DNA of 64,000 nucleotides from Betaproteobacteria bacterium (GTDB taxonomy: Bacteria; Pseudomonadota; Gammaproteobacteria; Burkholderiales; Casimicrobiaceae): the NCBI GenBank assembly GCA_027492485.1, contig JAPUER010000058.1, forward strand, positions 100,686 through 164,685, read 5' to 3'. Position numbers and translations under genes: made by a program. Of this stretch, positions 10,821-59,814 are shown one piece after another (the first letter of the stretch is position 1; each line of letters begins with the position of its first letter). The notes beneath the pieces are model-generated. The model was given only the letters and a program-made list of their open reading frames with translations, was not told the origin of the DNA and ran no database searches.

Positions 10821-10941
10821 AGCAGCTTTCGGCTGCAATGACGGTGGCAATGGGGCAGCAGCCGAAAATCACGTGAAGTCGACTTCATGCCATTTTTCGT
10901 ATTGAGCCCCGATTGAATGGGGCATTCAACAGAAAGCTGCT
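10821..10941. repeat. GTCGAC-centred palindromic element, copy A
   Basis: Left end AGCAGCTTTC (10821-10830) and right end GAAAGCTGCT (10932-10941) form a perfect 10-bp terminal inverted repeat. The centre is the 14-bp palindrome TGAAGTCGACTTCA (10874-10887), exactly midway. GAAAAT and ATTTTTC flank the centre symmetrically, and the right arm holds a hairpin GCCCC...GGGGC. The right end lies 5 bp before the ATG of the downstream epimerase-like gene, so it may affect that gene's translation start. Confidence 0.8.
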
Positions 10942-10945
10942 TTAC

Positions 10946-11824
10946 ATGACCGCCACTATTCCCGGCTTGCGTTTCGGCGAATTTCAGGGCTTCCCGGCGC
11001 TGCTCATCAGCACGCCGTTCTCGCGCGCCGCGATCAGCCTGTTCGGCGGCCACGTGCTGTCGTGGACGCCGCAGGGCTTCGACGACGTGCTCTGGCTGTC
11101 GCCGGTCAGCAAGCGCCCGCCGGACCCGATCCGCGGCGGCATTCCCGTCTGCTGGCCGTATTTCGCCCGCCAGGGGCAACCGGACGACGCGCCGATGCAC
11201 GGTTTCGCGCGCACCGCGCAGTGGCAGGTCACGCATGCGCAGCAGAACGCGGACGGCGAGATCGTGCTGGCGATGGCGCCGCCCGAGTTCGGCGAGGTGC
11301 CGATGAACCTGATGCTGACCATGCGCATCGGCCGCGCGCTGGAGCAGGCGCTGACCACGGTCAACCTGAGCAGCGAAACGGTACGCTTCACGCAGGCGCT
11401 GCACACCTACTTCCGCGTCGGCGACGCCGAACGCATCCGCGTCACCGGACTCGACGGCCTGACCTACGCCGACAAGTTCGACGATTTCAACGAACACCGG
11501 CAAAGCGGCGACTGGCTGCTGCACGGCCCGCGCGACCCCGGCCGCAGCGACCGCATCTACATGAATGCCGGCAACCGCTTCGAGCTGATCGATCCGGCGG
11601 CGCAACGCAAAATCACGCTAACCACCGGCGGCAGCAAGACGCTGGTGGTCTGGAACCCTGGCAGCGAGTGGATCAAGACCTTCGCCGATCTGCCCGGCGA
11701 CGGCTGGAAGCATTACGTCTGCCTGGAAGCCGCCAACTGCGGCAACGACGTGATCGAACTCGGCCCCGACGATTCGCACGTGCTGCAGCAGACCATCACC
11801 TGTGCCGCCCTGACCAATCACTAA
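10946..11824 (+). CDS. aldose 1-epimerase-like / D-hexose-6-phosphate mutarotase
   Basis: Galactose-mutarotase-fold protein (292 aa) of the YeaD type that interconverts anomers of sugars or sugar phosphates. Visible features are GGIPVCWPYF near residue 70, the His motif MHGFARTAQW, and ALHTYFRVGD with a second conserved His. I start at ATG 10946; an upstream in-frame ATG at 10913 lies inside the palindromic repeat element. It follows the SDR gene with the element between them, and is probably part of the sugar locus, although hexose-6-phosphate mutarotases are also found as orphans. Confidence 0.82.
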   Translation: MTATIPGLRFGEFQGFPALLISTPFSRAAISLFGGHVLSWTPQGFDDVLWLSPVSKRPPDPIRGGIPVCWPYFARQGQPDDAPMHGFARTAQWQVTHAQQNADGEIVLAMAPPEFGEVPMNLMLTMRIGRALEQALTTVNLSSETVRFTQALHTYFRVGDAERIRVTGLDGLTYADKFDDFNEHRQSGDWLLHGPRDPGRSDRIYMNAGNRFELIDPAAQRKITLTTGGSKTLVVWNPGSEWIKTFADLPGDGWKHYVCLEAANCGNDVIELGPDDSHVLQQTITCAALTNH

Positions 11825-11866
11825 CCGCCTGACCCCGTCGCGGCCATTGGGCCGCGCCGCTCCGCC

Positions 11867-12940
11867 ATGACCGCCACCCACGACACCACCCGCATCGACG
11901 ACACCCGCATCTCCCGCGTGCGCCCGCTGCTCACGCCGGCCTTGCTGGAGGAAAAACTGCCGGTGCCGGAAGCGGCCGAGCAGCTGGTCGAAGCGAGCCG
12001 CGCCGCCATCTCGCGCATCCTGCACGGCGAGGACGACCGCCTGCTGGCGATCGTCGGCCCCTGCTCGATCCACGACCACGATCAGGCGATGGAATACGCC
12101 CGTCTGCTCAAGGCCGAAGCCGACGCCCACGCCGCCGATCTGCTGGTCGTCATGCGCGTCTACTTCGAAAAGCCGCGCACCACCGTCGGTTGGAAGGGCT
12201 ACATCAACGACCCGCATCTCGACGGCAGCTTCGCCATCAACGAAGGGCTGGAGATGGCGCGGCGCCTGCTGCTCGACGTGCTCGCCGCCGGGCTGCCGGT
12301 CGGCACCGAGTTTCTCGATCTGTTGAGCCCGCAGTTCATCAGCGACCTCGTCACCTGGGGCGCGATTGGCGCCCGCACCACCGAGAGCCAGAGCCACCGT
12401 CAGCTTGCCAGCGGTTTGTCCTGCCCGGTCGGCTTCAAGAACGGCACCGACGGCAGCGTCAAGATCGCCGCCGACGCCGTGCTCGCCGCGCAGGCCAGCC
12501 ACGCCTTCATGGGCATGACCAAGATGGGCCAGGCGGCCGTGTTCGAGACGCGCGGCAACCGCGATTGCCACGTCATCCTGCGCGGCGGCAAGGCGCCCAA
12601 CTACGACGCCGCGTCGGTGCAGGCCGCCTGCGACGCGCTGACGGCGGCGAAACTGCGGCCGCAAGTGATGATCGACCTTTCGCATGCCAACAGCAGCAAG
12701 CAGCATCGCCGCCAGATCGAAGTTGGCAGCGAGGTGGCAAAGCAGATCGCGTCCGGCGACCGGCGCGTGGTGGGCGTGATGATCGAAAGCCACCTGCATG
12801 AAGGGCGGCAGGACATCGTGGCTGGCCAGCCGCTGGCCTGGGGTGTATCGGTGACCGACGCCTGCATCAGCTTCGAACAGACGCGCCCGCTGCTGGCGGA
12901 ACTGGCGGCGGCGGTGTGCCACCGGCGCGCGGCGAAGTAA
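11867..12940 (+). CDS. aroG: class I 3-deoxy-7-phosphoheptulonate (DAHP) synthase
   Basis: Condenses phosphoenolpyruvate and erythrose-4-phosphate, the first step of the shikimate pathway. The 357-aa protein shows IVGPCSIHDHDQA near residue 62, KPRTTVGWKGYINDP near residue 103, GARTTESQSHRQ, and PVGFKNGTDG, all hallmarks of the AroF/G/H enzymes. Length is typical. Which feedback class (Phe, Tyr or Trp) it belongs to is not decidable here, so the symbol is for the family. It is separated by 42 bp from the epimerase-like gene but functionally unrelated to it. Confidence 0.95.
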   Translation: MTATHDTTRIDDTRISRVRPLLTPALLEEKLPVPEAAEQLVEASRAAISRILHGEDDRLLAIVGPCSIHDHDQAMEYARLLKAEADAHAADLLVVMRVYFEKPRTTVGWKGYINDPHLDGSFAINEGLEMARRLLLDVLAAGLPVGTEFLDLLSPQFISDLVTWGAIGARTTESQSHRQLASGLSCPVGFKNGTDGSVKIAADAVLAAQASHAFMGMTKMGQAAVFETRGNRDCHVILRGGKAPNYDAASVQAACDALTAAKLRPQVMIDLSHANSSKQHRRQIEVGSEVAKQIASGDRRVVGVMIESHLHEGRQDIVAGQPLAWGVSVTDACISFEQTRPLLAELAAAVCHRRAAK

Positions 12941-12968
12941 GCGTCGCTACCGGTCGAAGCAGGCGCCG

Positions 12969-13298
12969 TTACCGGCTTGGGGCCGGTGCCACCGGGGCGC
13001 GGGCGACGCGCTTCGTCTGCTGGTAGGCGCGCGCCTCGGCGCGGGTTACCACGCCGTCCTGATTGCGGTCCATCAGGTGAAAACGTTTGCAGATGCGCGG
13101 CGTCCTGCCAGCGCAGGCTTCGGATTTGCTCAGGGCGCCGTCGTGGTCGCTGTCGGCCTGCGTGAACGGGCGTTTGCCGACACCGGGCGTGCCGGGAGCA
13201 CCCACAGCCGAGCTCGACAGCGGCACCGACAGCGCAAACGCAAAGGCGAACAGCGCAGACACCTGCGCTGTTCTGACCGTAGCCGACCTGATCGTCAT
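12969..13298 (-). CDS. small secreted EF-hand protein
   Basis: A 109-aa protein with an N-terminal hydrophobic signal segment (about residues 11-35) and two EF-hand loops. Loop 1 has Asp49, Asp51, Asp53, Gly54 and Glu60; loop 2 has Asp77, Asn79, Asp81, Gly82 and Glu88, all at Ca2+-ligand positions. Two Cys residues lie between the loops. It follows another EF-hand gene by 19 bp on the same strand, so the pair is an operon. Likely a periplasmic calcium-binding or sensor protein; partner unknown. Confidence 0.75.
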   Translation of the reverse strand: MTIRSATVRTAQVSALFAFAFALSVPLSSSAVGAPGTPGVGKRPFTQADSDHDGALSKSEACAGRTPRICKRFHLMDRNQDGVVTRAEARAYQQTKRVARAPVAPAPSR

Positions 13299-13317
13299 TG
13301 CCTGCCCGACGCGACGG

Positions 13318-13830
13318 TCAGTGCGTGCGCCAGCCGCTGACTTCTTCGCGCGTCAAATAGCCGTCGCGATTGCGGTCCATGAAGCCGAAGTTGCGCTGCC
13401 AATGCGGATAGGCCGCCGCTTCCTGATACGAAATGAAGCCGTCATGGTCGACGTCAGCGTAGTCGAAGGCTTCGCTTGCCACGGGAGTCACGTTGACGGC
13501 CATCGGGCTCGCATAGCCATACGCCACGGGGGCCGGCGGTGCGACGTAAGTGACTGTCGGCGCGGCATAAACCGGCGCGGTCGCCGCGTAGGCGATGCCG
13601 CCAATGGCGGCCGCGATGAACACCGGCGCGATCCAGCGTCCGCCCGACCAGTAACCCTGACGCCAGTAGCCATGCCGGTACCCGGGCCCCGGCGCCACAT
13701 AGGCCGGACGCGCATGACCGCCGCCGACGACCACCGGGCCGCGATTGAAATGCTTGCCACCGTCTGCGCTGGCTGCCGTTGCGGCGACGGCCGCGAGCAC
13801 CGCAGCACCGAGAGCGATCAACTTGTTCAT
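13318..13830 (-). CDS. secreted EF-hand protein with Tyr/Pro/Ala-rich linker
   Basis: A 170-aa protein with a signal peptide (MNKLIALGAAVLAAVAATAASA), a Gly/Tyr-rich region, a hydrophobic stretch at about 68-90, and two C-terminal EF-hand loops: Asp126/Asp128/Asp130/Gly131/Glu137 and Asp152/Asn154/Asp156/Gly157/Glu163. An AAGGAG ribosome binding site precedes the ATG. First gene of the two-gene EF-hand operon. No enzyme domain is visible, so a calcium-binding envelope role is the limit of what can be said. Confidence 0.75.
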   Translation of the reverse strand: MNKLIALGAAVLAAVAATAASADGGKHFNRGPVVVGGGHARPAYVAPGPGYRHGYWRQGYWSGGRWIAPVFIAAAIGGIAYAATAPVYAAPTVTYVAPPAPVAYGYASPMAVNVTPVASEAFDYADVDHDGFISYQEAAAYPHWQRNFGFMDRNRDGYLTREEVSGWRTH

Positions 13831-14037
13831 AAGAAAACTCCTTGTTCGGGTTCGGGCACGCTGTCCCGATGGCTTGTCAACGGATTAGACGCAGCCGTGG
13901 CGGACAAAACGACATCGGCGTTACAAATGATTACGACTGACTATCACGGCCGCAGCGCCCTGGCCTGCTGGTAAGACTCGGCAAAACGCCTATAAGTTCC
14001 GTAAAATCAAGGGTTTCCAGCCGTTACAGACATTCCC

Positions 14038-15669
14038 GTGACCGCCACGCCGCACACGGCCGAAGTCGCGCGCCGCCGCACTTTCGCCATCATTTCCCAC
14101 CCCGACGCCGGTAAAACCACGCTGACCGAGAAGCTTTTGCTGTTCTCGGGCGCCATTCACGTCGCCGGCAGCGTCAAGGCGCGCAAGGCGTCGCGCCACG
14201 CGACCTCGGACTGGATGGAGATCGAAAAGCAGCGCGGCATCTCGGTCGCCTCGTCGGTGATGCAGATGCTCTATCGCGAGCACGTGATCAACCTGCTCGA
14301 CACGCCCGGCCACCGCGACTTTTCGGAAGACACCTATCGCGTGCTGACCGCCGTCGACAGCGCGCTGATGGTCATCGACGCCGCCAACGGCGTGGAAGCG
14401 CAGACCAAACGCCTGATCGAGGTCTGCCGCCAGCGCGACACGCCGATCATGACTTTCGTGAACAAGATGGACCGCGAAGGCCGTGACCCGATCGAGCTGC
14501 TCGACGAGATCGAGAGCGAGCTCGGCATGCCCTGCGTGCCGATGACCTGGCCGGTCGGTCAGGGCAAGGCGTTCGGCGGCATCATCAATCTGCGCACGCA
14601 GACGATGCGCGTGTTCAACCCCGGCGAGGACACCGTCGAGGCGTCCGCGGCCGAGGAGATTCCGCTGTCCGACACCGCGACACTCAAAGCCCGCTTCGGC
14701 AGCGATTTCGAGCACGCGATGGCGAACATCGAGCTGCTCGCGGGTGTCGCGCCCGCGTTCGACCGCGAGGCCTTCCTCGCAGCGAAGCAGACGCCCGTGT
14801 TCTTCGGCTCCGCCGTCAACAATTTCGGTGTGCAGGAAGTGCTCGACGCGCTGGTCGATCTGGCGCCGCCGCCGCATCCGCGCGCATCGAGCAACGCCGA
14901 TGGAACGCTTACCGAAATTGCGCCCGACGCCGAAGGCTTTTCCGGCGTCGTGTTCAAGGTGCAGGCCAACATGGACCCGCAGCATCGCGACCGCATCGCC
15001 TTCGTGCGCGTGTGCTCCGGCAAGTACGAATCGGGCATGAAACTAAAAGTCGTGCGCAGCGGCAAGGAGATGCGCCCGACCAGCGTCGTCACCTTCCTGT
15101 CGCAGCGCCGCGAGGCCGTCGACGAGGCCTACGCCGGCGACATCATCGGCTTTACCATCCACGGTGGCGTGCAGCTCGGCGACACCATCACCGATGGCGC
15201 CACGTTGCAGTTCACCGGCCTGCCGTTCTTCGCGCCCGAGCTGTTCCAGACCGTCGAGCTCAAGAATCCGCTCAAGAGCAAGCAGTTGCAGCAGGGCCTC
15301 GCGCAGCTCGGCGAGGAGGGCGCGATTCAGGTATTCAAGCCGCAACTCGGCTCGTTGATGCTGCTTGGCGCGGTGGGCCAACTGCAATTCGAAGTCGTAC
15401 AGCATCGGCTGTCGACCGAATACAAGGCCGAGATCGCGCTCAAGGGCAGCCAGTTCGTCGGCGCCCGCTGGGTCACCTGCGACGACCCGGTCGAGATGAA
15501 GAAATTCATGGACTACAACGCGGCCAAGCTCGCCTACGACGCGGCCGACACGCTGGCCTATTTGCTCACGTCGAATTACGACCTGCGCCTGACACAGGAA
15601 CGGCACCCGAAGATCCAGTTCCATCCGCTGCGCGAGCATGCCGGGTTGAAGCTGGAGCAGGCGGCGTAG
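14038..15669 (+). CDS. prfC: peptide chain release factor 3
   Basis: Translational GTPase RF3, which recycles RF1/RF2 from the ribosome. The G1 motif is SHPDAGKTTLTEK near residue 20, G3 is DTPGHRDFSEDTYR, and G4 is NKMDR, followed by domain II and the RF3 C-terminal domain. At 543 aa it is slightly longer than the usual 525-530. The only start giving the complete N-terminus is GTG 14038. A palindromic CCCTCTCCC...GGGAGAGGG hairpin follows the stop. Confidence 0.96.
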   Translation: MTATPHTAEVARRRTFAIISHPDAGKTTLTEKLLLFSGAIHVAGSVKARKASRHATSDWMEIEKQRGISVASSVMQMLYREHVINLLDTPGHRDFSEDTYRVLTAVDSALMVIDAANGVEAQTKRLIEVCRQRDTPIMTFVNKMDREGRDPIELLDEIESELGMPCVPMTWPVGQGKAFGGIINLRTQTMRVFNPGEDTVEASAAEEIPLSDTATLKARFGSDFEHAMANIELLAGVAPAFDREAFLAAKQTPVFFGSAVNNFGVQEVLDALVDLAPPPHPRASSNADGTLTEIAPDAEGFSGVVFKVQANMDPQHRDRIAFVRVCSGKYESGMKLKVVRSGKEMRPTSVVTFLSQRREAVDEAYAGDIIGFTIHGGVQLGDTITDGATLQFTGLPFFAPELFQTVELKNPLKSKQLQQGLAQLGEEGAIQVFKPQLGSLMLLGAVGQLQFEVVQHRLSTEYKAEIALKGSQFVGARWVTCDDPVEMKKFMDYNAAKLAYDAADTLAYLLTSNYDLRLTQERHPKIQFHPLREHAGLKLEQAA

Positions 15670-15677
15670 CGCTTCTT

Positions 15678-15700
15678 CCCTCTCCCTTGAGGGGAGAGGG
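15678..15700. terminator. hairpin after prfC
   Basis: CCCTCTCCC, loop TTGA, GGGGAGAGGG, followed by a second GGGAGAGGG. The stem is stable but lacks a T-run. It also resembles a widely dispersed GGGAGAGGG-type repeat, so it could be a REP-like element that doubles as a transcript end. Confidence 0.45.
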
Positions 15701-16020
15701 CTAGGGAGAGGGTGATGGTCAATGAAGATTGATCTTTGCCACCAACGCGCTCATGCCGCGCGGGCAGTTACCTTTTCGCTTCGCCAAAAAGGTAACCCAA
15801 AAAGGCGACCCCAACGATTCGCCTGTTTCCTCCGGTGCTCGCGTTTCGCGGGACGAATCGCGACCATAGGAGCGATTCGGTCAAGTGTGCGCCGGGAACG
15901 CATCTACGGCCGCGAAACACTCCGCTCCTCGGGGCGAATCAATGGGGACCCGTCGGGCGATACTTGATCGCTTCGCGATTGACGTACGAGGCCCCGGATG
16001 CAAGCATCCGGGCTACGCGG
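15701..16020. other. intergenic region with dispersed-repeat remnants
   Basis: About 320 bp between prfC and a convergent lipoprotein gene without a credible gene. It holds a hairpin GTTACCTTTT (15768-15777) / AAAAAGGTAAC (15786-15796) and, at 15993-16012, the perfect dyad CCCGGATGC-AA-GCATCCGGG. A short open frame at 15722-15967 is Arg/Ser-rich and runs through these repeats, so I read it as non-coding. The second dyad lies just past the stop of the lipoprotein gene. Confidence 0.6.
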
Positions 16021-16536: not shown

Positions 16537-16764
16537 CGCATCAGTGCTCCAGATAGTGGTTTAACTGTATCGTTGTATCGTAGCCCGGATGCTCGCAGCC
16601 GGGTTTCTGCGCTCCTATCAACGTGCGCATTCGAGTGCGCAACGCGCATTGGTAGTACGGCGTCATCGGCGGTCGTTGCAACAGTTCCACTCATGGAACG
16701 TCGGCATTCGACGCGCGACAACAAACATGCATAGTTACAGCATTCGGTTCGCACGTTACGCGCC

Positions 16765-18277: not shown

Positions 18278-18985
18278 ATGTCCACTCTCAATCCGGCGGC
18301 GGATGCCGCTATCTCCCACGCAACCGACGCCGCGCCGGCGAAGGCCCGCGCCCGCGCCAAGGCCGACGACCGCGCCGTTGCCTATTACGTCGAAAACCTG
18401 AGCACGCTGGCGAAAGCGTTGCGCGATCAGTTCGAGCCGTTCGCGAAAGCGGCGACGATGCCCTCGCATGTGCAGTTGCTGAACTGGCTGGCGCGCGCAG
18501 CCGGGCATCGCAACTATCAGGCGCTGCGCGCGGCGGCGCTCACACCGGGGGCACGGCCGCTGTTGCCGCCGGTCGGTGCGACGCCGGCATCCGCGTTCGA
18601 CGCCACGCTGAGCACGCACGCAGCGAAGGCGCTGACGCAGTTCGACGAACGCGGCCGCCTGACGCGCTGGCCCAACAAGTTCGCCGTGCAGCGCATCGCG
18701 CTGTGGGCGCTGTGGCAACGCTTTGACGCGCGCCGCAGCTACAGCGAGCGCGAGGTGAACGCCGTGATCAACACCTGGGCGACTTATGGCGACCACGCCA
18801 CGCTGCGCCGCGAGCTGATCAACATGAAGCTGCTCGGCCGCAAGAGCGATTGCAGCGAATACTGGAAGGAGCCGCAGCGCGCCGGCGACGAGGTGCGGGC
18901 GTTCCTGCGCGCGCTGCGCGAGCGGACGCTGGTAGGAGCGGGCTTGCCCGCGATGAGCGGCACTCGCAAGACGGCATCGACGTAG
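18278..18985 (+). CDS. DUF2087 domain protein with repeat-derived C-terminus
   Basis: A 235-aa cytosolic protein. The C-terminal half (LTRWPNKFAVQRIALWALW...YGDHATLRRELINMKLLGRK...YWK) matches the DUF2087 family, often fused to or near transcriptional regulators and thought to act in regulation. The N-terminal part contains LLNWLARAAGHRNYQALRAAA. The last 20 or so residues (LVGAGLPAMSG...) are encoded by the first arm of a REP-like palindrome, so the original stop was probably lost when the repeat arrived. Confidence 0.75.
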   Translation: MSTLNPAADAAISHATDAAPAKARARAKADDRAVAYYVENLSTLAKALRDQFEPFAKAATMPSHVQLLNWLARAAGHRNYQALRAAALTPGARPLLPPVGATPASAFDATLSTHAAKALTQFDERGRLTRWPNKFAVQRIALWALWQRFDARRSYSEREVNAVINTWATYGDHATLRRELINMKLLGRKSDCSEYWKEPQRAGDEVRAFLRALRERTLVGAGLPAMSGTRKTAST

Positions 18986-19011
18986 TGGCATTCGCGGGCA
19001 AGCCCGCTGCC
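18933..19011. repeat. REP-like palindrome, GCGGGCTTGCCCGC type
   Basis: AGCGGGCTTGCCCGCGA (18937-18953) and its exact 17-bp inverse complement (18992-19008) enclose 38 bp. The GTAGGAGCGGGCTTGCCCGCGA core resembles REP sequences common in pseudomonads and other proteobacteria. It begins inside the upstream coding sequence. A degenerate relative is at 17976-18021 and a possible remnant at 63898. Confidence 0.8.
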
Positions 19012-19076
19012 ACTTGTCGCCTACCCCTCACTCGTGATCCCTGCGCCGGGATGACGCCCGAGGCGATTCCAGCGTA

Positions 19077-19194
19077 TGTCTTTTCATCGAAAGCCGCATG
19101 TAAATTGGGAAAAATCGCCTATTTGTCAAGAAGTCGACTTTTGCAAAAATAGTGCTGCTTGCCCCTATGGAATGAGCCTTCCACTAAAAAGCCG
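19077..19194. repeat. GTCGAC-centred palindromic element, copy D
   Basis: Centre GTCGAC at 19133-19138 inside AAGTCGACTT. The left end GTCTTTTC (19078-19085) and right end AAAAAGCCG (19186-19194) are equidistant from it. The left end is the least conserved of the six copies, but spacing fits exactly. A CCTATGG hairpin lies in the right arm. It precedes argS by 80 bp. Confidence 0.65.
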
Positions 19195-19274
19195 CTAATC
19201 ATCATCGGCAACCCGCAAGCGCCCGGCGCCGGCGCCAACGCGCCCGCCCGCCGCCGCTTGGGATAATTGCGGCT

Positions 19275-20930
19275 ATGCAAAAAGAACAATTGATCGAATG
19301 GCTGACCGCCGCCATTCGCGCGGCGGGGCTGTCCGCTACGGCGGTGCCGGCGCTGGAGCGGCCGAAACAGGCCGAACACGGCGACTGGGCGACCAACATC
19401 GCGCTGCAAATGGCGAAGCCGCTGGGCAAGAACCCGCGCGAGGTCGCCACGCTGCTGAAGGCCGCGCTGGACGCCAGCCCGAGCCCGATGGTCGGCGACA
19501 TCGCCATCGCCGGGCCGGGCTTCATCAACATCCGGCTGAACCCGGCCGCCAAGTTCTCGGCGGTGGCCGACGCCATCCGCCTGGGCGACGCCTTCGGTCG
19601 CAGCGCTGGCCGCGCCGGCGAAAAAGTGATGGTGGAATTCGTCTCGGCCAACCCGACCGGGCCGCTGCACACCGGGCACGCGCGTCAGGCCGCACTCGGC
19701 GACACGCTGTGCAACCTGCTCGCAACGCAGGGCTGTGCGGTGTACCGCGAGTTCTATTACAACGACGCCGGCAACCAGATCGACAACCTCGCGCGCTCGG
19801 TGCAACTGCGCGCGATGGGCGTGGAGCCGGGCAGCGCGCTGTGGCCGGAAGACGGCTACCGCGGCGACTACATCGTCGAGATCGGCAAGGCGTATCTGGA
19901 ACGCGGCGGCGACGTGAACGACCTCGACGCCATCCGCCGCTACGCGGTGGAGGTGCTGCGGGTCGAGCAGGATCGCGACCTTACGGCCTTCGGCGTGAAG
20001 CAGTTCGACTGCTACTACCTCGAAAGCTCGCTCTACACCGACGGCCGTGTCGACAAGACCGTGGCCGGCCTCAAGGCTTCGGGCCACACCTTCGAGCAGG
20101 ACGGCGCGCTGTGGCTCAGGACCACCGACTTCGGCGACGACAAGGATCGCGTCATGAAGAAGGCGACCGGCGGCTACACCTATTTCGTGCCCGACGTTGC
20201 TTATCACGTCAGCAAGTGGGAGCGCGGCTTCAGCAAGGTGGTGAACATCCAGGGCACCGATCACCACGGCACCATCGCCCGCGTGCGCGCGGGGCTGCAG
20301 GCGCTCAACGATGTACAACCGCCGATGTCCGGCTCGGGCATTCCGCAGGGCTACCCGGACTACCTGCTGCACAGCATGGTGCGCGTGATGCGCGGCGGCG
20401 AGGAGGTGAAGATCAGCAAGCGCGCCGGCAGCTACATCACGCTCGGCGAACTGATCGAATGGGTCGGCCGCGACGCCGTGCGCTTCTTCCTCGTCTCGCG
20501 CAAGGCGGACAGCGAATTCACCTTCGACATCGACCTCGCGCTGTCGCAGAGCGAGGAAAACCCGGTCTACTACGTGCAGTACGCGCATGCACGCATCTGC
20601 TCGGTGTTGCGCGAGGCGGCGGTCGGCGACGACGCCCTGCGCGCCGCCGATCTGGCGCTGCTGACGCACGAAAAAGCCGAGGCGCTGGCGAGCAAGCTGG
20701 CCGATTACCCCGCGTTGCTGGCAACCGCGGCGCGCGATCTGGCGCCGCATTTGCTGCCGTACTACCTGCGTGAAGTGGCGGCCGCGTTCCACGGCTACTA
20801 CGCCGCCGAGCGCATCCGCGTCGATGACCCGGCGTTGCGCGCCGCGCGCACCGCGCTGGCGGCGGCGACCGCCCGCGTGCTGAAAAACGGCCTGCAACTG
20901 CTCGGCGTCTCGGCGCCCGAGAAAATGTAA
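19275..20930 (+). CDS. argS: arginyl-tRNA synthetase
   Basis: Charges tRNA-Arg. The 551-aa protein has the HIGH-type motif [13 protein letters not shown] near residue 128, the KISKRAGS segment in place of KMSKS near residue 382, and an N-terminal Add1 domain and C-terminal DALR helix bundle. Length is normal. It is followed 11 bp later by a SPOR-domain gene and then dsbA, the argS-SPOR-dsbA order familiar from betaproteobacteria. Confidence 0.97.
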
Positions 20931-20941
20931 GAATCAGCGCC

Positions 20942-23133: not shown

Positions 23134-23967
23134 ATGACCCATCTGCCCGACGCCATTGGCTTGCGCCACGCGCGCTTTCACTCGCCCGAACGGCTGCGCA
23201 TCGCCTGCCTGGTGCCCTCGATCACCGAGACGCTGTTCGCGCTCGGGCTGGGCGACCGCGTAGTGGCGCGCACCGGTTTCTGCATCCATCCCGCAGAGGG
23301 CGTGCGCGAGGTGCCCAAGGTCGGCGGCACCAAGGACGTCAATGTGGCGAAACTGATCGCCACCGAACCCACCCACGTCATCGTCAACATCGACGAAAAC
23401 CGCAAGGACACGGTCGATCATCTGCGCCGCGTGGTGCCCAACCTGGTCGTCACCCATCCGCTGCTGCCGGAGGACAACGCCACGCTATTTGCGCTGCTCG
23501 GCCATATCTTCAGCGTGGACGACGCCGCGCTCACGCTCGCCCGCCGGCTGGCCGACGCGCTGACGCGTGCCCGTGCCGTGGGCGCGTCGCGGGCGAGCGA
23601 ATCGGTGCTCTATCTGATCTGGAAGAACCCGTGGATGACCGTCGCGCGCGATACCTACGTCAGCGCGATGCTCGCCACAGTGGGCTGGAAGACCTTGCCG
23701 TTGCAGGCAGAGAAGCGCTACCCCGAGATCGCAGCGAACGACAGCGTCTGGCAGCACGCGGATCGGGTGTTGCTGTCCACCGAGCCTTATCTGTTCGACG
23801 ACGAGCACGTCGCGGCGCTGCGCAACGAACGACAACTGACGCAACCGGTCGCGCTGATCGACGGCGAAATGACCAGTTGGTACGGCGTGCGGGCGATTGC
23901 CGGGCTCGACTACCTCGCCGATCTGCGTTCAAATCGGCAACAGCTTTCCGAGCAAAGTCCCATTTGA
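23134..23967 (+). CDS. BtuF-like helical-backbone metal/cobalamin-binding protein
   Basis: A 277-aa protein of the ABC-type cobalamin/Fe3+-siderophore periplasmic-binding superfamily (IACLVPSITETLFALGLGDRVVARTGFC, then KVGGTKDVNVAKLIATEPTHVI). No signal peptide is visible at ATG 23134 nor at the in-frame TTG 23107, and no permease or ATPase is adjacent. It may therefore be a cytosolic relative rather than a transport component. The last nine codons run into the palindromic element beginning at 23939, which supplies the stop. Confidence 0.78.
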   Translation: MTHLPDAIGLRHARFHSPERLRIACLVPSITETLFALGLGDRVVARTGFCIHPAEGVREVPKVGGTKDVNVAKLIATEPTHVIVNIDENRKDTVDHLRRVVPNLVVTHPLLPEDNATLFALLGHIFSVDDAALTLARRLADALTRARAVGASRASESVLYLIWKNPWMTVARDTYVSAMLATVGWKTLPLQAEKRYPEIAANDSVWQHADRVLLSTEPYLFDDEHVAALRNERQLTQPVALIDGEMTSWYGVRAIAGLDYLADLRSNRQQLSEQSPI

Positions 23968-24059
23968 TCTGGGCTCACGCCTTGAAATCGGTATAGTCGA
24001 CAAAGCGGAATTCTTCGGTCTACGCCTTATACGGACGGCGTTTGACAAGAAAAGCTGCT
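23939..24059. repeat. GTCGAC-centred palindromic element, copy C
   Basis: Left end AACAGCTTTC (23939-23948), right end GAAAAGCTGCT (24049-24059), centre GTCGAC at 23996-24001, midway. Hairpins CCC...GGG (left) and CGCC...GGCG (right) lie in the arms. Outer flanks GGCAA and TTGCC extend the inverted repeat. It overlaps the 3' end of the BtuF-like gene and abuts the 3' end of dxs. Confidence 0.8.
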
Positions 24060-29038: not shown

Positions 29039-29180
29039 AGCAGCTTTCTTGCTCTGCGCGGCGTTCCATATGGGTTAACGGCCTAAAAATTACAATGTCG
29101 ACTTGGGGTATTTTTACACCTGAACCTCGCCGCATCCCCTGTGCGATGGGGCTTCCCGGATCAGTTTCCAGAAAGCTGTT
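29039..29180. repeat. GTCGAC-centred palindromic element, copy B (expanded right arm)
   Basis: Left end AGCAGCTTTC (29039-29048), right end GAAAGCTGTT (29171-29180), centre GTCGAC at 29097-29102. The left arm has the standard spacing. The right arm is about 20 bp longer, with a CCCC...GGGG hairpin (29136-29151) that could be the insertion. AAAAAT and ATTTTT flank the centre symmetrically. It lies between the Rieske gene and the DUF748 gene. Confidence 0.75.
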
Positions 29181-40412: not shown

Positions 40413-40534
40413 ATCAGCTTTTGTCGTAAAACCGCATCCCATGTGGGCGAAGACGGTGAAAAGCAAACAAGTCGACTATTGAAGAAATTCAACGTTTCGC
40501 CCAATACTGGTAGGCTTTCTGACCAAAAGCCAAT
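40413..40534. repeat. GTCGAC-centred palindromic element, copy E
   Basis: Left end ATCAGCTTTT (40413-40422), right end AAAAGCCAAT (40525-40534), centre GTCGAC 40471-40476, exactly midway. Left arm hairpin CCCATGTGGG (40438-40447), right arm CCCAATACTGG. It sits between convergent hydrolase and cca genes. Confidence 0.75.
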
Positions 40535-51899: not shown

Positions 51900-51930
51900 G
51901 GCGTCCTCCGCAGGAAGTATGGGCAAATCT

Positions 51931-52005
51931 CCGTTCGCCCTGAGCGCAGCGAAGGGTCTGAACGCCCGATACCATCGAACCCTTCGCTGCGCTCAGGGCG
52001 AACGG
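51931..52005. repeat. REP-like palindrome, CCTGAGCG type, copy 3
   Basis: Perfect 27-bp inverse-complement arms (51931-51957 and 51979-52005) with a 21-bp loop. The best preserved of the four copies, lying between the MBOAT and SGNH genes of one apparent operon. Confidence 0.9.
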
Positions 52006-52028
52006 ATGATGATTTCATACGCGTTTTC

Positions 52029-53453: not shown

Positions 53454-53514
53454 ACCGGGACAAATGCTACCGTGCTACGATGCTGCGGGCTTTCTGGAGC
53501 TTTAGTCTCGTTGC

Positions 53515-54090: not shown

Positions 54091-56480
54091 TTCGCACAGG
54101 CCGTGCGTTTGCGATCGGCCAGCGCGGCGTCACCCGCACGGTCAAACGTCGAAATCCCCCATCGCGTGTTGATCCCCTGCCACGCTTCTGCAGCTCGCAA
54201 CCAGGTTGAGCAGGCTGGTTTCCTTTCCCCCGCCGCTTCATGCAGTTCTGCCAGCGTGCGCAACGTCGACGCGCGATCACGCGCGCGTTCGGCATCATCG
54301 GGGGCCTGGCGCAGCCGGTTCTCGGCGCTACCGAGACGTGCCTGTGCAATGGCAATCGCTTCCGGGTGTCGCCCCAATTTGCTGAGGATCAAGGCTCGCT
54401 GATTCAGTACAACGCCAAGCATGCGGTTCGCGTCAAGGTTGTCCGGGTCAAGCGTCAACAATCGCTCGGCGATGGCTGCGCCGCGGTCGATCACGGCGAG
54501 CGCCTCGGCAGCAGGGCGTCCCACATCCAGCATGGCACCAGAAAGACTCCAGTAGCCATTGACGGCGCCGTTCAGCACCCGTCGGTCGGCGGGCGTTTGT
54601 GCCAGCGCACGCTCGAAGTGATCAATGGCCCGACGGTAAGCAACGACGGCGTCATCATAGCGATGCAAGTACCAGAGGGAGTCTCCGAGCAGAAGCGCGG
54701 GTCGTGCGACCTGATAGTCGAAGGCCATGGCATGTTTCACTGCGTCAGGCAACGCGCGCAGGCGGGCTTCCTCGCCTGCCTGCAATGCCGCCGCTGCTGC
54801 CATGTCGTTCTTGAACTTGAACGCATCGGCCTGCACCAGCCGTGTGCCCAACAACAGGAGATCAAGGTCGGCCCGCTCGGCGGCCGTCGCCGTCGACGCC
54901 GACGCGAGCGTTGCCGCAGTCGATGCGTTCCGCTCTGCTTCCCGGGCTTTGGCAAGCTGGTGTTCGGCATCGTTGTCGGCGGATCCATAGATCAGCGCCA
55001 GAAGATACTGCGCGCGCGCCAGGTCACGGCGATGCGCCCACCCGTCGTCATTGCCCGGCGCCAGCAGCAACGCCTCGGCGCGCTGCAGGCTGGCGCGTGC
55101 CGCCCCGGGCTCGCCGACGTGGGCCCGACCCGGTACACCCTGCACTTCACCGAGACGCGTCAGGCCGCGCGCCACTTCGGTGCGCAATGCCGTGTTGTCG
55201 CGTGCCGTGCCCGCCAGGGTATCCAGGTAGCGTTGACCGCGCTCAACCAGCTCGCGCCGCGCCCTGGTTGTTCCCGGGATGCTCTCCAGTTGACCGTCGA
55301 GATCAAACAGCATGAAATTCGCCAACGCCCGGACCTCGGCGAAGCGCGTTTCCGCTTCGCGCCGCGCGGTGTCGGCTCGGGAATACAGCGTGGCGATGGT
55401 CAGCAGCGCTGCGATCAAGGTCAGCAGGGCAACCAGCGCGCTGGCCACGCGCCACGGATAGCGATGCACAAATCGGCCCGTCGCGTAGCGCCAATTCGAT
55501 CCCATGGCGAGCACCGGTTTATGCTGCAACCAGCGGTTCAAATCATCACGCAGCGCGTCCGCACTGGCATAGCGATCCTCACGCGCCTGCGCTGTCGCGC
55601 GCCGAATGATGGCCTGCAGATCAAGCGGGCCCTCCGGCGCGACGCTGCGCAACACGACTCCCAACGCGTAGACATCGTCGGCAGTAACCGCCGGCAGACC
55701 AGCCAACCGTTGCGGACTGCTGTAGCCCTGTGTGAAGCCCTCGCGGCGTGCGTCGTCCATATCCTGTCCGCGGGCGACGCCGAAGTCGATCAACCTGGTA
55801 TCGCCCGTGGCGGTGACGAGAATATTGGCTGGCTTCAGATCGCAATGCAACACCAGATTCTGATGGGCATGCGCCACCGCATCGCAGACATCGCGAACGA
55901 GGGCGACGCGCGCCGGCAATGCAGGCCCCACCATGTTGACGTATTGGTCGAGGGGCCGTCCGTTCACCAACTCCATCACCAGATAGTGCAGACCGTTGCT
56001 CGTGGTGCCGCCATCGAGAATGCGTGCGATGCCTGGATGCGCCATTCGCGCCAGCAGACGCCGTTCGGCGTCCATATAAGGTGCCAGCAGCAGTTTGCCG
56101 CTGCGCGGCCGGATGAACTTGATGGCCACCGACTGCTCGAACAGACCATCGTTGCGCCGTGCGCGATACACCGAGCCCATGCCACCGGAACCGATCAGTT
56201 CCACAAGATCGTAGACACCGATGGTCGGCGGCGGCAACACGGGCGCACCGCCCGCGAGACCGCCGATACGGGTCGCGTCCGGATCCGCCAGCGACGTTTC
56301 ACACGCCTCATCGGCCGCAATCAGCCGGTGTACCCGTGCCCGCAGCGCATCATTGCTCGCACAGTGCTCGTCGACCAGGCGTGCTCGCGCCTCGCCCGTC
56401 AACTCGATCGCGGCCGCGAAAAGCAGCAGCGCGTCGCGCTCAAGCAAAGAGGAGCCGAGGGTAGATGCACTCACGGTCAT
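54087..56480 (-). CDS. membrane Ser/Thr protein kinase with TPR-like periplasmic domain
   Basis: A 797-aa kinase. The glycine loop is IGSGGMGSVYRARR near residue 90, followed by the ATP Lys in VAIKFIRP. The catalytic loop is HCDLKPAN (HCD in place of HRD) and the metal motif DFG is intact. One membrane helix follows the kinase near residue 345 (VASALVALLTLIAALLTIA), then a helical, TPR-like sensory region to the end. ATG 56480 is the start I prefer. It is the last gene of a three-gene minus-strand operon and convergent with the ECF sigma gene. Confidence 0.86.
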   Translation of the reverse strand: MTVSASTLGSSLLERDALLLFAAAIELTGEARARLVDEHCASNDALRARVHRLIAADEACETSLADPDATRIGGLAGGAPVLPPPTIGVYDLVELIGSGGMGSVYRARRNDGLFEQSVAIKFIRPRSGKLLLAPYMDAERRLLARMAHPGIARILDGGTTSNGLHYLVMELVNGRPLDQYVNMVGPALPARVALVRDVCDAVAHAHQNLVLHCDLKPANILVTATGDTRLIDFGVARGQDMDDARREGFTQGYSSPQRLAGLPAVTADDVYALGVVLRSVAPEGPLDLQAIIRRATAQAREDRYASADALRDDLNRWLQHKPVLAMGSNWRYATGRFVHRYPWRVASALVALLTLIAALLTIATLYSRADTARREAETRFAEVRALANFMLFDLDGQLESIPGTTRARRELVERGQRYLDTLAGTARDNTALRTEVARGLTRLGEVQGVPGRAHVGEPGAARASLQRAEALLLAPGNDDGWAHRRDLARAQYLLALIYGSADNDAEHQLAKAREAERNASTAATLASASTATAAERADLDLLLLGTRLVQADAFKFKNDMAAAAALQAGEEARLRALPDAVKHAMAFDYQVARPALLLGDSLWYLHRYDDAVVAYRRAIDHFERALAQTPADRRVLNGAVNGYWSLSGAMLDVGRPAAEALAVIDRGAAIAERLLTLDPDNLDANRMLGVVLNQRALILSKLGRHPEAIAIAQARLGSAENRLRQAPDDAERARDRASTLRTLAELHEAAGERKPACSTWLRAAEAWQGINTRWGISTFDRAGDAALADRKRTACAN

Positions 56481-56523
56481 AGCGTAGCCCATCGGCACAG
56501 GTTGCCGACGCCTCAGCCGTTGC

Positions 56524-57195
56524 TCAGAACTTGTTCAATATTGGCGTGGGAACGGTTACACCGGCCCGAGTTGCCAGTCTGGCGGCCGCGCTGCGGGCTC
56601 GGGCGACACGCAGGCGTTCATCCAGCGCCCGTTCGGCCCATGGGGTCCAACCATAGCAAGCCGATGCGACTGCGACGGTCCACGCTGGCGGCTGCTCCAT
56701 ATAGCCCGCCATGCGGAAAAGCGCATACGTAAAGCAGCCGATCAGTGTGCCCACGTAGCCGGCCGCAAAGACCCCGGTGAGCGCGGTCACCGCCGAGGCT
56801 GCCGCCGTTCCGCCCACGCCCAGGGTCAGCGTTCTAAGTGCAATCCGTTGCGTGCCGCCTGCGGTCAACGCTCCGACGCCGGCGGCATTGACAATTTCGA
56901 CAATGCTTCCCCCCTGAATGACTTTCCAGCCAAAGTAGCGGCAAAAGAAGATCAGTGCATTGATGTTGCCGGTGGCCAGCATGTGCTCGGCGAATCGTGA
57001 CGCATTGAGCTGTTGCGACAGCGGGCCGGAGAGCGCCGCCGCAGCGACCATGCAGCCCATTGCCTGTCCAAGGTTGTATCCGACGTCGCCGAGTTTGGCG
57101 AGATCGGGCATGGTGTAAGCCGGGTTGGCGTCGGCTGCTTCCTTGAAGTAGGCGCAAAACGCCGGCCAGCCGGATTTGGGGATTTCGTAAGCCAT
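56524..57195 (-). CDS. hypothetical membrane protein
   Basis: A 223-aa protein with two hydrophobic helices near 125-165 (GVGGTAAASAVTALTGVFAAGYVGTLIGCF) and a basic C-terminal helix. No family recognised. Second gene of the kinase operon, 43 bp before the kinase and 46 bp after the secreted protein, so it is likely a functional partner. Confidence 0.65.
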   Translation of the reverse strand: MAYEIPKSGWPAFCAYFKEAADANPAYTMPDLAKLGDVGYNLGQAMGCMVAAAALSGPLSQQLNASRFAEHMLATGNINALIFFCRYFGWKVIQGGSIVEIVNAAGVGALTAGGTQRIALRTLTLGVGGTAAASAVTALTGVFAAGYVGTLIGCFTYALFRMAGYMEQPPAWTVAVASACYGWTPWAERALDERLRVARARSAAARLATRAGVTVPTPILNKF

Positions 57196-57241
57196 GATCT
57201 TCTCCTGTTCGATGCGACCAACGTGAGCCGTTGTGCCAGCG

Positions 57242-57895
57242 CTAGCGTGCGCTCAGCGGGTGCCAGTAGCCGTTGGCGGCGACCCAGTAGTTGCCCGACG
57301 CGTCAACGCGATAGGTATTGCCCTGGTACTGATGCTGCGTATTGGCCTGCCAGGTGTGCGGCAACGCGACCGTGGCGCCGTTGCCTGCCGTGTACGTGCT
57401 CTGACCGAGCAACTGACGGCCGGCTTCCTGCTGGTGGTTGAAGTAGCCTTGCTGCCACTGCGTCTGCGCGGTCGCCCGATTGGCCTGTGCGGCCTGATAG
57501 CCGCGCCAGCTTTGCATCTCGCGAGACTGATTGCCCGCCTCGACGGCACGGGCATGTGCGATTCCCTGCGCGGAAAACCCGGCGGTATACATGTAGTTGT
57601 AGGCAAACGTCGGAAAGTCGGACGGTCGTTGACCGCGTTGCTGCGCTTGTGCGAGGTGCTGGCGATAAGCGGCCTGAATTTTCGGATCCTGCATGGCGCG
57701 CTGAATCGCCGAGGTCTGCGCCTGATTGATCTGCTGCGTCAGTTGCCGGTTCTGCTGCAGGGCCATTGCCATGCGCTGATTGGTGATGGCCATTTGCTGC
57801 GACATGTAAGCGTTCAGATCCTGCGCGCCTGCACTGAACGCCAGCGTACCCGCCAGAGCCAAGGTTGCGAGGCGAAGAAAGTTGCTGGATTTCAT
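57242..57895 (-). CDS. secreted Gln/Ala-rich hypothetical protein
   Basis: A 217-aa precursor. Signal peptide to about residue 25 (MKSSNFLRLATLALAGTLAFSAGA), then a Gln-rich helical region and a C-terminal Tyr/Trp/Asn-rich beta segment (NTYRVDASGNYWVAANGYW). CAGGAGAA upstream fixes ATG 57895. First gene of the kinase operon. Could be the periplasmic ligand or target of the kinase system. Confidence 0.65.
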   Translation of the reverse strand: MKSSNFLRLATLALAGTLAFSAGAQDLNAYMSQQMAITNQRMAMALQQNRQLTQQINQAQTSAIQRAMQDPKIQAAYRQHLAQAQQRGQRPSDFPTFAYNYMYTAGFSAQGIAHARAVEAGNQSREMQSWRGYQAAQANRATAQTQWQQGYFNHQQEAGRQLLGQSTYTAGNGATVALPHTWQANTQHQYQGNTYRVDASGNYWVAANGYWHPLSAR

Positions 57896-58059
57896 GGTGT
57901 TCTCCTGAAAGTGGGTGAGGTACTGGTAACGGCGCAGAAATCGGGAAAAGCGGATCAAAAGTCGTGAAAATTTTGTTTGTCGCCTCCCCGTACGTGTTTC
58001 CGTCTATCCGCAGCCGCGCGTTTGTGCGGCGGGCGACCATGCGGTGCTAATGTCTGCAC

Positions 58060-58962
58060 ATGGCAAGTGCAGCGACACAACAACGCATAGCCGTGCTGAC
58101 TTGGCACGGCTACAACGTCTTCGGCAACACCTATGGCAGCAACGATCTGATCGCGTTTGCCGAGGATCTGCGCACGCTGGACGACGCCGGATTTGCGGTG
58201 ATCCCGCTGCTCGAGGTGGCGCGCTGGGTGCGTCGCGAGCGCAGCGATTTCACCGATCTCGCGGGCGACGGGCGGCCCGTCGTTGCCTTGTCCTGCGACG
58301 ACGGGACGGATTACGACTGGCGCAACGTGACGCATCCCGAACACGGCGCGCAAACCGGTTTTGGCGAATCGATGCGCGTCTTTCAGTGCGAACGACCGGG
58401 GCGGCAGCCGGCGCTATCGTTGACCAGCTTCGTGATCGCCAGCCCCAGCGCGCGTCACCAGATCGACCGCGGTGCGATGGCCGGTCAAAGCGCGCTCAAC
58501 GACGACTGGTGGCAGGCGGCCAATGCGAGCGGTCTGATGCCGATTGAAAGCCACGGCTGGGACCACAACCATCCGACGGTGTCGCCGCTGGTGCAGCGCG
58601 AGCAGCGCAGCGGGGATTTCTTCGCCATCGACACCTTTGCCGAGTGCGACATGCACGTGCGGGCAGCGGCGAACTACATCGAGTCGCGGGCAGGCCGGCG
58701 ACCGGCGCTGTTCGCCTACCCGTGGACGCAGGCGTCGGACTACATGCGCTACCGTTACATGCCGACCGCGGCCGAAGCGCTGGGCACGATTGCGGCTTTC
58801 GGCGGCCAGAGCGATTACGTCACGCGCGACAGCGACCGCTGGTATCTGCCGCGCTTCGTGTTCGGGCCGGACTGGAACAGTCGCGACAGTCTGCTCGCGC
58901 TGCTGCGGCGTGCGCTGGGGAATTGGCGCGGCACGGCAACGCGTGAAACCCGTTCGCCCTGA
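58060..58962 (+). CDS. polysaccharide-deacetylase-like protein
   Basis: A 300-aa protein with the CE4-like motifs LSCDDGTDYD near residue 92 and ESHGWDHNHP near 168 (Asp-Asp and His-x-x-x-His metal ligands). No signal peptide, unlike cell-wall deacetylases. The C-terminal ATRETRSP and the TGA stop are encoded by the left arm of a REP-like palindrome. Confidence 0.68.
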   Translation: MASAATQQRIAVLTWHGYNVFGNTYGSNDLIAFAEDLRTLDDAGFAVIPLLEVARWVRRERSDFTDLAGDGRPVVALSCDDGTDYDWRNVTHPEHGAQTGFGESMRVFQCERPGRQPALSLTSFVIASPSARHQIDRGAMAGQSALNDDWWQAANASGLMPIESHGWDHNHPTVSPLVQREQRSGDFFAIDTFAECDMHVRAAANYIESRAGRRPALFAYPWTQASDYMRYRYMPTAAEALGTIAAFGGQSDYVTRDSDRWYLPRFVFGPDWNSRDSLLALLRRALGNWRGTATRETRSP

Positions 58963-59020
58963 GCGCTGCGAAGGGTCCGATAGCCGGGAGATTCAAACCC
59001 TTCGCTGCGCTCAGGGCGAG
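58950..59020. repeat. REP-like palindrome, CCTGAGCG type, copy 4
   Basis: Left arm 58950-58976 and right arm 58997-59020 (ACCCTTCGCTGCGCTCAGGGCG). The TGA at 58960-58962 of the deacetylase-like gene is part of the repeat core. Confidence 0.85.
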
Positions 59021-59082
59021 CAGAGTTTCCTCTGTGCGGAGTGTGCACATTTCGGTAGTCCGCACTACCGTATTGCCGCCGG

Positions 59083-59691
59083 TCAGAACGGCCCGAGCTT
59101 GACGGCTTCGGCGATGCGCCGCGTCTTGCCTTCTTCGCTGATCGGTTTCTGCCAGATCGCGAACAAATAGGGCTCGGCGACCTTCTCGAAGCCGACACGG
59201 CGGTCCACCGCCTCGGCCTGCTTGTCGCCGATGTAGCCCCAGATGGTGGCGCCGTCGCTCAGCGTGGCGTGAGCGTGACGCATCATGATCTCGGCGATGC
59301 CGCCGCGCTCGCGCACCCAGGCGCGCTGCAGCGGCGACAGCGCGCGGTAGACGCGGTCATCGGTGCACAGCCCGCCGCAAAGATAGTCGCCCTGCCACGC
59401 GGTGTAGTGCACGTAACCGGCGCACACGGTGCCGGCCATCGCGACGAAGTGGCGCGGGAACTGCGGAACTTCCTGACCGAACTTGCGGCGGAAAAGATCG
59501 GCGGCGATGGCCGGATCGTCGATTTCGACGATGCGGATAGTTTCGTCCAGCGCCGGGCGGTCGCGCATCGCGGCGCGCGCCTGCTCGACGGCGGCGGCGT
59601 AGGCGGCGTCGGCTGCCGGCGCGGGCGCATGCGCCGGGGTTGCCGCCGCGCCGCGACGGCGCTTCCACCAGTCTGCGAGTTGTGTCAGCAT
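59083..59691 (-). CDS. hypothetical protein, possibly GNAT-like
   Basis: A 202-aa cytosolic protein with a Pro/Ala-rich N-terminus. The centre HFVAMAGTVCAGYVHYTAWQGDYLCGGLCTDD and the AEIMMRHAHATL segment recall GNAT folds but no firm motif A is present. Unknown function. Confidence 0.55.
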   Translation of the reverse strand: MLTQLADWWKRRRGAAATPAHAPAPAADAAYAAAVEQARAAMRDRPALDETIRIVEIDDPAIAADLFRRKFGQEVPQFPRHFVAMAGTVCAGYVHYTAWQGDYLCGGLCTDDRVYRALSPLQRAWVRERGGIAEIMMRHAHATLSDGATIWGYIGDKQAEAVDRRVGFEKVAEPYLFAIWQKPISEEGKTRRIAEAVKLGPF

Positions 59692-59693
59692 CT

Positions 59694-59814
59694 ATCAGCT
59701 TTTCGCTGTAACGCCCATTGCATAGGGGTTTGAACCGCAAAATACAACTTGTCGACTTGCCAAAAAATCGCTGTCTATACCCATTGCAGACGCCGTTTCA
59801 TACCGAAAAGCCGT
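59694..59814. repeat. GTCGAC-centred palindromic element, copy F
   Basis: Left end ATCAGCTTTTCG (59694-59706) and right end CGAAAAGCC (59804-59812) give an 8-bp perfect GCTTTTCG/CGAAAAGC stem. Centre GTCGAC 59751-59756, exactly midway. CCCATTGCATAGGGG makes the left-arm hairpin. It fills the gap between two minus-strand genes. Confidence 0.8.

Follow-up and report, generated by a model that had tools for sequence, protein, structure and literature searches.

REP/BIME and ERIC sequences are intergenic palindromes that occur many times per genome, and REPs and ERIC consist of near-identical copies. The matS, parS, SlmA and Noc sites are chromosome-organizing sequences of ∼10 to 20 bp with a regional bias, each family being dispersed and read by one DNA-binding protein, and miniature inverted-repeat transposable elements (MITEs) are short, intergenic, bounded by inverted repeats and present in hundreds of copies. 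REPs are given as 20–40 bp in length and tagged with GTAG or CGTC in the available portion of PMC3733652; that of PMC6379681 describes gyrase sites within BIME-2 and an Escherichia coli gyrase motif of 130 bp that is symmetric, has a 4-bp-staggered central cleavage and shows a GC period of 10.75 bp. Here we describe a family of ∼117-bp dyad-symmetric intergenic elements centered on GTCGAC, six of which lie in a 64,000-nucleotide stretch (the window; 65.5% G+C) of a Casimicrobiaceae genome, G000 (assembly GCA_027492485.1, 4.12 Mb in 83 contigs; the window is G000:C58:100686-164685). We lean toward reading these elements as docking sites of a two-fold symmetric DNA-wrapping complex that organizes the chromosome in ∼10-kb units.

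Like REP/BIME and ERIC, the elements are palindromic, intergenic and numerous, but they are 117 bp long, lack clear covariation between their arms, are evenly spaced and include no near-identical copies among the sampled G000 elements (maximum identity of 0.776 in 2926 pairs); they are not 20–40-bp hairpins with a GTAG or CGTC tag. The same maximum means that the high-identity copies characteristic of MITEs are absent from that sample, and, unlike MITEs, the elements have a constrained motif and positions that are conserved across species. Reading by one chromosome-organizing DNA-binding protein, as we propose here, would recall matS, parS, SlmA and Noc sites, from which the elements differ in being ∼117 bp long and evenly spaced over the sampled stretches. 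The E. coli gyrase motif and the strong gyrase site of phage Mu resemble the elements in their size (∼120–130 bp), symmetry about a 4-bp center and helically phased A+T/G+C; gyrase sites are degenerate and do not form a conserved repeat family, and their period is 10.75 bp as compared to ∼10 bp in the elements. Base-specific ends, mid-arm dyads, even spacing and a lineage consensus are features of the elements that the available portions of the sources do not describe for the gyrase motif or the Mu site. The original prediction knew no named repeat with this layout, and an Rfam cmscan search of the window at the gathering threshold agreed, returning only two glycine riboswitch matches, neither at an element; within the open-licence literature, no publication describes such an element in its title or the start of its abstract.

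All six sites that had been grouped by a shared geometry were recovered in place, as follows.

10823..10939, no strand: element 1, center GTCGAC at 10878-10883, flanked by co-directional genes (+ +); nhmmer E 9.9e-18
19080..19194, no strand: element 2, center GTCGAC at 19133-19138, flanked by co-directional genes; nhmmer E 1.4e-20
23941..24057, no strand: element 3, center GTCGAC at 23996-24001, flanked by convergent genes; nhmmer E 5.3e-16
29041..29178, no strand: element 4, long form, center GTCGAC at 29097-29102; nhmmer E 1.7e-9
40415..40531, no strand: element 5, center GTCGAC at 40471-40476, flanked by convergent genes; nhmmer E 1.4e-16
59696..59813, no strand: element 6, center GTCGAC at 59751-59756, flanked by co-directional genes (- -); nhmmer E 9.0e-18

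The window contains 53 GTCGAC sites, and the five that have both an exact AGCTTT to the left and an exact AAAGC to the right within the search ranges are five of these six elements. The sixth is the 19.1-kb copy (element 2), whose imperfect left end, TGTCTTTTC, matches at 4/6 positions. Element 3, at 24 kb, has an orthologous element in a related genome, G005. The copy for which a 20-bp longer right arm had been claimed is the 29-kb copy (arm shift of +20), and the CCC...GGG pairs noted about halfway along the arms correspond to a dyad centered ∼34 bp from the element center.

The strict pattern AGCTTT-N30..60-GTCGAC-N30..60-AAAGC gave 85 forward and 88 reverse matches in the 4.12 Mb of G000; the same pattern read backwards as a control gave only 0 and 1. 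An iterated nhmmer profile, initially built from strict copies, was used to search 864 kb of G000 (the window and 800 kb more) and located 84 elements, each with E<1e-3, or ∼1 per 10 kb; half-elements (<∼100 bp) were counted among the 84 and excluded from alignments. The same profile found 0 elements in the reversed 864 kb. Extrapolation yields a total of ∼400 elements per genome, so that both the predicted hundreds of copies, at about one per 10 kb, and their excess over background were borne out. Among 80 relatives (own genome counted), the strict pattern was present in 11, all within the genus of 17, and in 0/63 others. Model R1, a sequence-only model built from 50 elements, matched every genus genome except G016 (16/17) at E<=0.01, and none of 31 family genomes of other genera at this threshold (one match had 0.0148). 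Model R2, built from 40 elements of G007 and scanned with stricter filters than R1, matched 14/17 genus genomes (not G003, G012 or G016) and 0/53 genomes outside the genus. Scoring was limited to 150 and 91 matches per genome in the two R1 scans (genus and family, respectively) and to 51 in the R2 scan, on both strands, so that per-genome match numbers are lower bounds. A gapped pattern of 22 fixed bases matched 87 stretches in genome_contigs (one genome per species, 84,980 species), and the 80 with titles were all metagenome-assembled genomes labelled Burkholderiales or Pseudomonadota. Viral carriage was ruled out on the basis of 0 exact matches to this pattern in viral_contigs.

Element length was usually 115–118 bp (68/78 long matches). 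In arms of G000, G005 and G012 whose end is good and normally placed, it started 59 bp from the center in 212/285 and 58 bp from it in 67/285. The consensus half-site is CAGCTTTT-n-g-n-tgaAA-n-cccCaTt-nn-at-n-tGGGCt-...-gc-...-aatt-...-aAAGTC|GAC, with base-specific parts at the end (CAGCTTTT), at the mid-arm dyad centered 34 bp out and at the center (AAGTCGACTT); the first base of the ends varies (C in 76–85%, T in 15–24%). Ungapped rows anchored on the center had an information content of 58.5 bits over 124 columns.

The original prediction held that conservation acts on shape and not on sequence, as it would for a cruciform or cloverleaf. Permutation tests of arm complementarity within genomes rejected a cruciform or RNA structure: whole-palindrome covariation gave z values of 1.6 in G000 (50/1000 shuffles as high), 0.2 in G005, −0.3 in G012 and −0.2 in G007, and the segments of G000 from basal through mid to central gave 0.8, 1.6, 1.1 and 0.0. 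Elements of G000 matched their own reverse complement at 0.626 and that of another element at 0.634. With arm complementarity no higher within than between elements, the half-sites behave as independent draws from one consensus, the pattern that binding by a symmetric protein complex would predict. The mid-arm dyad alone, scanned in G000, G005 and G012, showed weak covariation within genomes (z of 3.1 in G000 and 2.2 in G012, each the best of up to 55 registers) and was not the top register in G005. Pooling several species raised z to 2.9–5.3 in three of the four segments (all 161 elements) and to as much as 3.9 for the 83 elements of other species; we infer that this signal stems from mixing lineages with different dyads, because it is not significant within G000 (borderline), G005, G012 or G007. 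The recurring geometry, the abundance, the intergenic location and the lack of a name thus stand, whereas the claim of shape conserved over sequence does not. What the elements conserve is a sequence motif with dyad symmetry, in constant phase with the helix, the putative signature of a protein-bound site.

The A+T content alternates outward from the center, with a best period over 60 bp of 9.75, 9.75, 9.75 and 10.25 bp in G000, G005, G012 and G007, respectively. Its power at 10–11 bp was reached by 0, 0, 8 and 0 of 2000 position shuffles, a procedure that ignores the clumping of motif words. The A+T profiles of the genomes correlate with one another at 0.51–0.95, or at 0.34–0.91 minus the strongest motif columns, although the G007 stretch is 55% G+C and has another center. 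Arm lengths were scanned in 354 arms of 177 elements from three genomes. The full end motif was found exactly 10 bp too far out in 7 cases, compared to ∼0.5 expected per distance; one of these is a mis-centered half-element and two also retain an end near the normal place. The six well-centered arms that lack a normal end are displaced by +10 (four), +20 and +21 bp, and another of the 13 displaced arms (C16 173282) is ambiguous, being either +20 with a weaker end or +33. A second +20 match comes from an arm whose normal end is present as well. Beyond the normal end place there were also four matches at +8/+9 (three mis-centered) and one at +19 (mis-centered); the shifts of +8, +9 and +19, with their negative partners, are artefacts of mis-centered elements (C16 127141, C53 116906 and G005 11725, 546649 and 774734). 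A letter count of the 29-kb copy divides its right-arm shift of +20 into ∼+10 bp between end and dyad and ∼+10 to +11 bp between dyad and center, and a copy at 260 kb of C16 likewise has ∼+10 bp and +10 to +11 bp in the two segments; both copies appear to contain one extra helical turn in each arm segment. Three neighbors on contig C12 of G012 (127020-127147, 129938-130065 and 136562-136689) each have a right arm that is 10 bp longer, and two of the three carry AACGCGTT in the extra piece. Variants whose arms differ by whole turns of the helix lend independent support to helical phasing.

Different species carry the sites at matching gene junctions, as a comparison of orthologous intergenic regions revealed. 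Among gene pairs adjacent in both G000 and G005, an element was present in both genomes at 9, in one only at 0 and in neither at 60 (p=1.8e-11). The corresponding counts (both; one only; neither) were 4, 2+0 and 51 for G000/G012, 2, 0+1 and 40 for G000/G007, 2, 1+0 and 23 for G005/G012, and 2, 1+4 and 35 for G005/G007. These samples are small (9, 4, 2, 2 and 2 shared sites); pooled over the species-level comparisons, 19/28 sites were shared. The junction that holds the 10.8-kb copy has both genes with an element between them in G005, G001, G015, G006 and G008, and one gene or both adjoin an element in G013, G003, G009 (weak) and G007 (weak); the two genes in G003 are on different contigs, each adjoining an element (L165 and L177). 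At this junction in G008 (locus L176, upstream of 2060-2172), ∼190 extra bases separate the upstream gene from the element (gap of 338 vs 144).

Within these shared positions the bases outside the motif have diverged widely. Orthologous elements of G000 and G005 are 0.635 identical, as compared to 0.625 for unrelated elements, whereas mean identity is 0.71 for other intergenic pieces of the same gaps (8 pieces) and 0.80 for 12 gaps that have no element; four-fold degenerate codon sites stand at 0.617 (0.40 expected from composition). Within the nine orthologous pairs, identity is 0.82 over 24 motif columns and 0.35 over 48 weak ones, so that motif and phase are kept while the remaining bases are nearly saturated; unrelated pairings (15-pair set) gave 0.75 and 0.30. 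Non-motif bases of the elements apparently change faster than the adjoining intergenic DNA and the four-fold codon sites. Closer pairs keep their similarity (L083/L137 at 0.80 and L160/L161 at 0.77), which fits vertical descent. The consensus itself differs between lineages: elements of G012 and G008 have the mid-arm dyad CGACCGnnnnnCGGTCGTT instead of GCCCATTnnAATnTGGGC (GACC-type vs GCCC-type lineages), and those of G007 have the dyad CGCCCAATTnAATTGGGCG and a center of TTATCGATAA type, with the dyad-to-center spacing equal to within ∼1 bp across the lineage consensus strings. Recent transposition and whole-element gene conversion were ruled out by the absence of near-identical copies noted above. 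Many sites differing together by lineage, several at the same positions and without near-identical copies, argue for co-evolution with a trans-acting protein over copying.

Genes were called with a simple in-house codon-usage script. By these calls the element centers lie outside genes in 84/84 cases in G000, 28/28 in G012, 65/65 in G005 (800 kb) and 36/40 in G007, and with 0/84 G000 centers in called genes the predicted intergenic location held. The 65 elements found in 800 kb of G005, a single-contig genome, have a mean interval of 12.0 kb and a coefficient of variation (CV) of 0.51; random placement in the same intergenic gaps gave 0.89±0.09, and 0/2000 placements were as even. Spacing was likewise even in G000 (CV 0.58 vs 0.85 for random placement; 0/1000 as even) and G012 (0.60 vs 0.92; 5/1000). 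Flanking genes of 83 G000 elements were convergent in 25 cases, co-directional in 42 and divergent in 16, as expected from the 27/51/22% of intergenic bases in these classes; when gaps of at least 100 bp are counted instead, convergent junctions are over-represented (25/83 elements vs 60/367 gaps). A terminator or promoter role was rejected on the grounds that orientation follows the share of intergenic bases, though not of gaps. In G005:C1 (∼962820-963325), an element shares its intergenic gap with a TTGTGCATAA word, which we take to be DnaA-box-like and possibly near the replication origin, and no element was detected in this gap in G012.

On the reading that we lean toward, a two-fold symmetric protein complex would dock at each element and wrap or bend ∼120 bp of DNA. 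A trans-acting, sequence-specific protein, perhaps a nucleoid-associated protein of the genus, or several proteins, would read the motif, and the evenly spaced complexes would set, anchor or service chromosome segments of ∼10 kb, as supercoil or loop domains. Selection would retain motif and phase while the other bases drift, and the motif would track changes in the protein. This reading draws on dyad symmetry without clear covariation, the base-specific motif, ∼10-bp A+T phasing, whole-turn arm variants, intergenic position, even spacing at 10–12 kb, retained junctions and lineage shifts of the consensus. More tentatively, the genus may mark its chromosome every 10–12 kb with hundreds of phased 117-bp wrapping sites whose evolution is coupled to that of a trans-acting protein.

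Several observations weigh against this docking-site reading. The A+T profile has a second period peak at 7.75–8 bp, almost as high in G000 and slightly lower in G005, and the shuffle's disregard of motif clumping bears on the periodicity values. The arm scan returned 13 end-like matches at 12 other distances, as chance predicts, and three of the four +10 arms are the G012 neighbors, which may share an origin and not be independent. Of the 28 compared sites, 9 are in one species only, and the 10.8-kb junction has no element detectable with the G000-trained profile in G002, G004, G010, G011, G012, G014 and G016 (7/16 other genus genomes). Spacing in G007 was not significantly even at the 5% level (CV 0.75 vs 0.94; 51/1000) for the 40 elements used, a longer model having found 71 places, some partial, across these 400 kb. 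Arms from different loci are in some cases 0.75–0.81 alike (8/156 arms vs 0.0 expected from independent columns; in G005, 4/122 vs 0.1), and their partner arms are unrelated; such likeness is not predicted by site-by-site selection alone, and could reflect subfamily structure or half-site exchange. The elements are limited to one genus, of which one member, G016, has none. Finally, no reader protein was identified, GyrA/ParC being the only protein family queried.

That query bears on an alternative which we regard as unlikely but in need of serious consideration, namely that the elements are strong DNA gyrase sites, with cleavage at the central TCGA (4-bp stagger), both arms wrapped and one station per 10-kb segment. 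Gyrase is the closest known model: the E. coli motif in the portion of PMC6379681 available is similar in size, is likewise symmetric about a 4-bp center and has helical GC phasing, and TCGA is kept at the consensus center in all four genomes examined. Gyrase is described in the accessible part of PMC12324340 as having a palindromic preference over ∼120 nucleotides, with −2A and −4G as preferences common to the enzymes compared. The A at −2 is found in G000, G005 and G012 (0.73–0.80), but not in G007, and −4G is lacking in all four genomes; the element A+T period is 9.75–10.25 bp, not 10.75 bp. GyrA/ParC (PF00521) gave one match in 14/17 genus genomes and two contig-split pieces in the other three, consistent with one homologue in genus genomes; it gave one match in 6/7 genomes of other family genera and two in 12/16 genomes from other families of the order. 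These bacteria may lack topoisomerase IV. When the phage Mu strong gyrase site was scored with the A+T profile, its best arm reached percentile 98.2 of Mu positions. This is the right arm, which is also the arm that matters for gyrase according to the portion of PMC10052514 available. However, this match is one post-hoc single-arm test made after a both-arm test, in which the two arms together ranked 463 to 2741 of 36593, depending on the profile. Two further gyrase sites, the position-991 site of pBR322 (percentile 22–70) and the par region of pSC101, did not match the profile at the places where we presume them to lie. Gyrase also leaves unexplained the base-specific ends, the lineage-specific dyads and the absence of sites from G016 and from sister genera with a GyrA homologue.

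We consider it improbable that the elements are simply ancient non-autonomous mobile elements of MITE type, hundreds of copies having arisen in an ancestral burst and then been retained or left to decay. Their ends resemble terminal inverted repeats, one arm can be alike between loci whose other arms are unrelated, and the presence of elements in 16/17 genus genomes, with G016 and the other genera searched lacking them, points to seeding in one ancestor or to loss in G016. At two junctions G016 keeps both genes and has no element: its gap at one is only 27 bp vs 141 bp in element-bearing G005, and at the other 385 bp vs 126 bp in element-bearing G000. Such a history is opposed by the low maximum identity of the sampled copies, by even spacing, by the different lineage-specific motifs at the same positions and by the lack of exact pattern matches in viral contigs, and mere decay is contradicted by the persistence of motif columns amid near-saturation elsewhere. 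Neither an autonomous relative nor a target duplication came to light, though no systematic search for either was made. The distribution favors a spread within a single ancestor, perhaps as mobile elements, or else a loss in G016, and a mobile reading may describe their origin rather than their present state or function.

A role as recombination sites, with half-sites exchanged or overwritten by breakage at the center, seems to us still harder to sustain. It would explain the shared single arms and the loss of similarity between orthologous G000 and G005 elements, which are hardly more alike than unrelated pairs even though identity averages 0.71 elsewhere in these gaps. It also fits the arrangement in G003, with the two genes of the 10.8-kb junction on separate contigs, each beside an element, and the synteny breaks at elements (8/17 vs 47/180 intact junctions, with both comparison directions counted and rows not independent), but this excess of breakpoints is not significant (p=0.09), most element-bearing junctions stay syntenic, the L083/L137 and L160/L161 pairs keep their similarity, and no recombinase was found, though no search aimed at one was made. 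A comparison of window positions 18985-19275 with G007:C16 387379-387592 showed a left gene that keeps its element and a right neighbor that differs. Cruciform or cloverleaf DNA, as in the first reading of the window, or a structured RNA, e.g., a bidirectional terminator, is scarcely credible: the layout is that of an inverted repeat, some copies fold well (−49 kcal/mol at 10.8 kb) and convergent junctions are enriched by gap count, but arm covariation is not significant in the four genomes, orientation is as expected when weighted by intergenic bases, several copies fold poorly (−23.7 and −25.9 kcal/mol) and compensatory changes are not seen as the main conserved property.

If the more tentative reading is true, in which the genus marks its chromosome every 10–12 kb, the elements would amount to an evenly spaced domain system written into the sequence of a bacterial chromosome, with no known counterpart. 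What sets the boundaries of supercoil domains is debated. Bacterial supercoiled domains are thought to span ∼10 kb, with 400–500 in E. coli, according to the part of PMC3820752 available. An explicit, even site at the domain scale would make the boundary question directly testable by sequence. The elements would further provide an example of a strongly base-specific DNA-wrapping site in bacteria, and would offer a natural experiment in which one protein co-evolves with ∼400 sites.

Elsewhere in the window, positions 61988-62218 hold two tandem glycine riboswitch aptamers (Rfam RF00504, 38.9 and 61.4 bits), followed by an open reading frame at 62248-63387.

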